The translations under genes and the position numbers were made by a program. A model generated the notes under the pieces. It did not search any database, was not told the DNA's origin, and saw only the letters and a list, made by a program, of their open reading frames with translations. From Alphaproteobacteria bacterium (GTDB taxonomy: Bacteria; Pseudomonadota; Alphaproteobacteria; Caulobacterales; Hyphomonadaceae), in the NCBI GenBank assembly GCA_018827375.1, contig JAHJYW010000002.1, positions 1 through 64,000 on the forward strand: a DNA stretch of 64,000 bases. Direction: 5' to 3'. Positions 35,451-36,439 of this stretch are shown in pieces; positions within the stretch are counted from its first letter, which is position 1, and each line of letters opens with the position of its first letter.

Positions 35451-35660
35451 CTACACGATGCCTTCGCGCTGTGCGCGCTTGCGAGCCAGTTTGCGGGCGC
35501 GACGAACGGCCTCTGCGCGCTGACGGGCTTTTTTCTCGGATGGCTTTTCGAAAGCCTGACGGGCTTTCATTTCGCGGAAGAGGCCTTCACGCTGCATCTT
35601 TTTCTTCAATGCGCGCAGGGCTTGCTCGACATTGTTATCACGGACGACGATCTGTACGAT
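35451..35660 (-). CDS. rpsU: 30S ribosomal protein S21, apparent AUC start
   Basis: The 69-residue sequence is unmistakably S21: [40 protein letters not shown] and a basic C-terminal helix of Arg/Lys/Ala. There is no ATG, GTG or TTG in frame before this sequence. The codon at the expected Met position, 35660-35658, is ATC, and GGAG at 35671-35668 is 7 bp upstream, an ideal spacing. The only nearby ATG (GGAGAAG overlaps it) is in another frame. S21 acts in 30S initiation. It is divergent from the COQ9 gene, a familiar alphaproteobacterial order. Confidence 0.9.
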
Positions 35661-35788
35661 GGGTCTTCTCCATTGGGTTGGGGGCGTCGCCCCGACTAAT
35701 TCTTTACGGCTTTGTCGGCCATGAAGGGGCGCCTATATCACGCAAGAAGCAATTTGGCCAAGCCCCTTAAATGATGCAAAGATGTATT

Positions 35789-36439
35789 ATGACACAAACG
35801 CCGTCAGATGCCTACCGTTCCCGCTGGCTTGAAGCCCTGCTCCCCCATGTCGCCTTTGATGGCTGGACCGACGCAGCCGCCGCCACGGCTGCCAAAGAGG
35901 CCGGGCTTACACAAGGTGAACAGGCGCTCGCAGCCCCCAATGGCGTTGTCGACCTGATCGAGGCCTTTTTTGCTGCCGCTGAGGCAGAAGCCACGGCAAA
36001 TCTCGCCTCTGAAGACCTCTCGGGCCTGCGTGTGCCGGATAAGGTAAAAAAGGGCGTCCTTGCCTGGCTCACTGCGCTGGAACCGAACCGCGAGGCTGTG
36101 CGCCGTGCTGCCGCGCGTGGTTTCTTGCCTTGGGGCGCCGGCGCCGCTGCCCAGCGCACATGGTCTGTCGCCGACATGGTCTGGACCGCGGCCGGCGACA
36201 CTGCCACCGATTATAATCGCTATTCCAAGCGCGGCCTGCTCGCCGCCGTGATTCCCGGCATCGTCATGCACTGGCTCGACAATCCGGCCCCCGCAGATCT
36301 CGACACTTACATTTCTCGCCGCCTCCAGCAGGTCTCCGGTCTTGGCCGCACGGCCGGCAAGGTCGTTGGCCCCGTTCTGGACAGGCTGAATGCGCTGAAA
36401 AACGCCGGAAGATCATCCGGGCGCGGACAGGAGAGCTGA
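35789..36439 (+). CDS. COQ9-family ubiquinone biosynthesis protein
   Basis: The product is about 216 residues long. It has the COQ9 layout: a TetR-like helical head (SRWLEALLPHVAFDGWTDAA) and a lipid-binding part with DYNRYSKRGLLAAVIPG and the C-terminal DLDTYISRRLQQV, which is close to the family consensus. COQ9 binds lipid and helps COQ7-type hydroxylation in ubiquinone synthesis. ATG 35789 is chosen as the first start before the conserved head; 35771 is also possible. The neighbour rpsU is typical. Confidence 0.88.
   Translation: MTQTPSDAYRSRWLEALLPHVAFDGWTDAAAATAAKEAGLTQGEQALAAPNGVVDLIEAFFAAAEAEATANLASEDLSGLRVPDKVKKGVLAWLTALEPNREAVRRAAARGFLPWGAGAAAQRTWSVADMVWTAAGDTATDYNRYSKRGLLAAVIPGIVMHWLDNPAPADLDTYISRRLQQVSGLGRTAGKVVGPVLDRLNALKNAGRSSGRGQES

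Follow-up and report, generated by a model that had tools for sequence, protein, structure and literature searches.

The ribosomal protein gene rpsU is predicted to begin at a conserved weak, infC-like start codon across an alphaproteobacterial order

Introduction

Does the gene for ribosomal protein bS21 (rpsU) begin at an AUC codon in this alphaproteobacterium of the family Hyphomonadaceae, and is such a start peculiar to one genome or shared by its relatives? The question comes from a 64,000-nucleotide stretch of contig JAHJYW010000002.1 (the window), in which an earlier note had read an AUC start on rpsU, likened it to infC, and named a base error as the main alternative. The IF3 gene infC is the classic weak-start gene and the model for non-AUG starts. 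Both infC autoregulation and the discrimination exerted by IF3 against starts other than AUG, GUG, and UUG are established for other genes; as worded, the discriminated class includes CUG and leaves UUG out.

Results

On the minus strand of the window, the S21 frame reads AATGGAGAAGACCC-ATC-GTACAGATCGTC, and GTA-CAG-ATC follows the ATC as codons 2 to 4 (Table 1). The product is bS21 according to TIGR00030 (68.4 bits, cut-off 28.95) and PF01165 (69.8 bits, cut-off 27), and it is the one S21 match in the genome of the window. The earlier description of the site held in its details: ATC occupies the start position, GGAG lies 7 bp upstream (35671-35668), the nearby ATG (35673-35671) sits in another frame and overlaps that GGAG, and no in-frame ATG, GTG, or TTG precedes the ATC, given that the stop-to-stop frame opens at 35732 and none of the three occurs in its 24 codons before the ATC. 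The initiating residue of this bS21 would be methionine.

Table 1. Positions of rpsU and neighboring features in the window
Feature	Position	Strand	Remarks
rpsU (bS21) CDS	35451..35660	-	ATC start 35660-35658 to TAG stop 35453-35451; 69 codons plus stop
Predicted AUC start codon of rpsU	35658..35660	-	ATC, ATA, ATT, CTG, or TTG at the homologous site in 170/170 order loci read
rpsU codon 2, GTA	35655..35657	-	GTG in 0/170 order loci read
Shine-Dalgarno core GGAG of rpsU	35668..35671	-	7-nt spacer to ATC
Out-of-frame ATG overlapping the Shine-Dalgarno of rpsU	35671..35673	-	Judged not to be the start
Hairpin GGGGC-GAC-GCCCC, upstream of the Shine-Dalgarno	35681..35693	-	Lineage-specific, weak statistical support
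Likely promoter TTGGCC ... GATATAGG	35731..35761	-	Block conserved in the genus, by-eye alignment
Divergent COQ9-family gene	35771..36439	+	TIGR02396, NCBI model name diverge_rpsU; adjoins rpsU

A search of the GTDB family covered 101 genomes and found S21 in 99, and we read 90 of the 106 matches listed, which span ten genera and include two second copies of rpsU. The start position holds ATC in 57 of these loci, ATA in 22, and ATT in 11, counts that, like the others below, overstate independence because the rpsU loci are related. GGAG lies 6 to 8 nt upstream in all 90. The second copies (L169 and L171, genus g5) have ATC at the start position too. Four named public records of the clade (L032-L035) also hold ATC, ATA, or ATT, and, judging by sequence, some of them may duplicate assemblies already represented in the 90. 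The alignment that the earlier note had proposed as a check for conserved ATC thus shows a weak codon kept in every family locus, but ATC itself in no more than the 57. The idea that the ATC is an ATG misread in sequencing or assembly has nothing in its favor besides the oddity itself; it is ruled out by the same codon class in 90/90 family loci, and we give it practically no chance. Comparison with relatives supports AUC as the probable start codon of rpsU in the window.

The order search covered 200 genomes, and 80 loci were read from four other families, whose matched genomes number 158. In these loci the start position holds CTG (36), ATC (34), or TTG (10), with TTG confined to one genus (g14 of family f5) and with both CTG (one locus) and ATC (two loci) present in a single genus of family f3 (g33). 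Neither ATG nor GTG was found at this position in any of the 170 order loci read. A codon outside AUG, GUG, and UUG therefore occupies the start position in 90/90 family loci (ATH) and 70/80 other-family loci (ATC or CTG), the ten TTG loci falling outside this class. The AUC of the window is not private to it; it is one of an order-wide class of weak rpsU starts. Given that the order also uses CTG, and TTG in one genus, what matters is the avoidance of AUG and GUG rather than AUC itself.

We considered that translation could instead begin elsewhere, whether at the ATG at 35673-35671 with frameshifting, at another upstream codon in some relatives, or at the next codon, GTA. An in-frame ATG, GTG, or TTG does lie within 24 nt upstream in 40 of the 170 order loci. 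In the family (31/90), these are 10 ATG codons that overlap GGAG in frame, 12 nt upstream, 20 TTG codons 6 nt upstream, which sit about 2 nt past GGAG in the loci inspected, and 1 GTG; the 9 among the 80 loci of other families are 1 ATG (L323), 5 TTG, and 3 GTG. A start at GTA would have its own precedent, given that other orders mostly begin at the homologous codon with GTG, TTG, or ATG. However, the upstream ATG overlaps the Shine-Dalgarno, shifts frame between sister species, and is missing in other genera, and the upstream open frame contains no ATG, GTG, or TTG in 78 of the 170 order loci, window included (up to 40 codons scanned), which leaves those loci with no canonical alternative. 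The GTA position is occupied by GTA, GTT, GTC, or ATT, a set with a single known start (ATT), whereas the ATC position is strictly near-cognate. The in-frame ATG and the close TTG would be poorly placed as starts. Because they provide hardly any spacer from GGAG and are missing in frame from sister species, the near-cognate codon was judged to be the start in general, although a few members could differ. L323, a locus of the CTG type with an in-frame ATG 6 nt before the CTG and right after GGAG, could be a rare exception. On these comparative grounds, an upstream ATG with frameshifting, other upstream codons, and a GTA start were all judged unlikely, and we assign them very little probability. 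Initiation would then truly take place at the near-cognate codon.

Among the other orders of the class, 185 genomes matched and 40 loci were read. In 30 of these, rpsU starts one codon later, with GTG (20, one TTG-GTG locus being counted here), TTG (6), or ATG (4), and the other 10 start at the same position with ATC (3), ATA (3), CTG (2), TTG (1), or ATG (1), so that 35 of the 40 have a start other than ATG. The named public loci, the best 80 of 446, include 4 of the present clade; the remaining 76 use the later codon, as GTG (37), ATG (34), or TTG (5). ATG is thus used to start rpsU in other parts of the class. Where a lineage begins rpsU at the later codon, the position homologous to the ATC is unconstrained. 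The Rhodobacteraceae-type genes (L037, L087, and similar) combine ATG at the later codon with an extended Shine-Dalgarno, such as AAAGGTGGTGA. These sites, which come mostly from one related group, are very strong: their median is -13.1 kcal/mol, close to the published cut-off for autoregulation of bS21 in Bacteroidota, and 37 of 38 reach -10 or stronger.

As a negative control, the S10-spc-alpha cluster of the same genome has ATG starts in 25 of 26 genes, with N-termini picked by eye from translations, a procedure that favors ATG. The TTG of uS13 (L317) is the sole non-ATG start among these 26 main-cluster genes. As a positive control, infC starts with ATA (26) or ATC (4) in 30/30 family loci with the same layout (L246-L275), where GGAG or GGAA lies 7 to 8 nt upstream and an in-frame ATG, GTG, or TTG occurs anywhere upstream in 9 loci and within 24 nt in 1. 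The parallel with infC drawn in the earlier note thus gains support in the family. The TTG of g14 in f5, however, is canonical for IF3, so discrimination by IF3 cannot operate in every member, which speaks against IF3 as a sensor throughout the order. Genome-wide in Caulobacter crescentus, the published start-codon shares are ATG 74.3%, GTG 14.5%, TTG 10.3%, CTG 0.7%, and other near-cognates 0.25% (PMC4117421).

The Shine-Dalgarno of rpsU in the window is ordinary, with a predicted pairing of -6.4 kcal/mol against a median of -7.2 for the genome's own ribosomal genes (n = 23), as calculated with an assumed anti-Shine-Dalgarno sequence and an energy model that is not that of PMC9976891. The peculiarity of rpsU thus lies in its codon and not in Shine-Dalgarno strength. 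The same value does not reach the Bacteroidota-type range (below -13 kcal/mol), a comparison made across differing energy models. Medians are -6.4 kcal/mol in the family and -8.9 in the other families of the order. The TTG loci have a stronger Shine-Dalgarno (median -11.8, n = 11, 10 of them from g14 of f5), which may represent a different tuning.

We also considered a conserved leader hairpin as an operator and rejected it. Mean z scores of leader folding were -0.84 (72 distinct leaders) versus -0.33 (90 distal control stretches) in the family, -0.25 (77) versus -0.13 (80) in the other families, and -0.10 (40) versus -0.17 (39) in other orders. Such a hairpin is thus at most lineage-specific. 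In several family genera, differing sequences fold a hairpin near the same place, with weak statistics. The leaders compared show no conservation of an 8-codon mini-ORF located at 35722-35696. Transcription would start about 65 to 70 nt before the rpsU start codon; a consensus promoter scan missed the likely promoter in Table 1 and flagged 35814-35786 instead.

We then followed codons 1 and 2 on a tree built by a quick method from rpsU codons 3-65 (189 nt), on which change counts are rough. At minimum, the tree requires 20 changes among the five start codons; the minimum is 8 for ATH versus YTG and likewise 8 within the set ATC, ATA, and ATT. If families are clades, taxonomy alone already implies three or more ATH/YTG switches, located within f2, f3, and f5. 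A switch between ATC and CTG involves two bases; unless these change simultaneously, the intermediate is ATG or a codon that is not a start, yet ATG was never seen. Codon 2 shows 22 changes on the tree and is GTG in none of the 170 loci; GTG makes up 95 of 310 Val codons (31%) in 24 of the genome's own ribosomal and rpoA genes. Placed at codon 2, GTG would make the next codon a stronger start, of the kind used in other orders. If selection favors a weak start, AUG should be missing from codon 1 and GUG from codon 2, as is the case here. The family loci have GTA (63), GTT (16), or ATT (11) at codon 2. GTA is frequent here, yet it accounts for 9 of the 310 Val codons in the ribosomal and rpoA genes, a preference for which GTG avoidance alone does not account.

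Discussion

As judged from codon and context, the conserved start of rpsU is infC-like and weak. We propose that the AUC of rpsU is read by the initiator tRNA as fMet and that selection keeps the start codon weak throughout the order, such that ATC, ATA, ATT, and CTG may interchange while AUG and GUG are excluded. Joined to an ordinary ribosome-binding site, such a start would make bS21 output hinge on the stringency with which the 30S subunit inspects start codons, a step under IF3 control, as for infC. The weak start could serve the regulation or the dosage of bS21, with IF3 or bS21-poor subunits as a possible sensor. With moderate confidence, we favor the reading that selection maintains a weak start which holds down the efficiency of bS21 synthesis and ties it to the stringency of 30S initiation (IF3).

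The main rival is a constitutive throttle, in which the weak start merely lowers bS21 to match ribosome number and neither IF3 nor bS21 is sensed. In Staphylococcus aureus reporters, weak starts cut yields several-fold to tenfold, with AUU and AUA at about 10% of AUG in poor medium and a ccpN AUU/AUA reporter at up to 30% of AUG in rich medium (PMC13009471). The switching among ATH, CTG, and TTG also fits a rule that any weak codon will do. It can be argued, however, that a promoter or Shine-Dalgarno could set the yield as easily, and that conservation over five families together with the infC parallel favors a special need. We regard a throttle as possible, with a chance clearly short of even.

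Another explanation, in line with the feedback loop suggested in the earlier note, is feedback by bS21 itself, in which 30S subunits lacking bS21 would tolerate weak starts better and more bS21 would be made. The autoregulation of bS21 in Flavobacterium makes this plausible, but that case uses an extended Shine-Dalgarno and a sequestered anti-Shine-Dalgarno (PMC9976891), whereas the site here is ordinary, and the literature passages searched did not report how well ribosomes lacking bS21 tolerate different start codons. We consider such feedback doubtful. Its fuller form is slightly more doubtful still: bS21-short 30S subunits would inspect the start less strictly, for example via weaker IF3 action on the platform, and AUC, AUA, AUU, and CUG would be read more until bS21 is replenished. 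If this were true, Alphaproteobacteria and Bacteroidota would have built the same bS21 feedback from different initiation signals.

Returning to the favored reading of a selected weak start tied to 30S stringency, the order-wide absence of AUG suggests that these cells throttle or self-regulate a protein that helps start translation. An AUG-less rpsU would also be a simple genetic handle, given that one codon swap probes start-codon stringency against ribosome make-up. For annotation, genes with weak starts are probably liable to false upstream starts or to omission. A text search of the literature, with most subscription papers outside it, returned no recognized report of non-AUG rpsU starts, and Dataset S1 from Schrader et al. 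2014 (PMC4117421) may already list rpsU with a CTG start. Non-AUG starts are known; a ribosomal protein gene that is AUG-less across an order, switching among AUC, AUA, AUU, and CUG, was not found in that literature. A 2024 review calls the regulation of rpsU in Escherichia coli unknown (PMC10931766).

Among the most similar known systems, infC (AUU/AUA, autoregulated by IF3) shares with rpsU an ATH start, GGAG 7 to 8 nt upstream, and a product that acts in initiation. Unlike infC, rpsU encodes a ribosomal protein and not the discriminating factor, and the order also uses CTG and TTG. The S. aureus AUU/AUA starts of cvfC1, ccpN, and citZ are likewise noncanonical and lower translation, with conservation for cvfC1 and ccpN, but they have extended Shine-Dalgarno sequences and belong to other genes in an unrelated clade (PMC13009471). 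Flavobacterium johnsoniae rpsU shares an unusual initiation signal, and there the bS21 content of ribosomes controls rpsU translation through an extended Shine-Dalgarno (below -13 kcal/mol) and a hidden anti-Shine-Dalgarno (PMC9976891), whereas rpsU here combines an ordinary Shine-Dalgarno with a non-AUG start.
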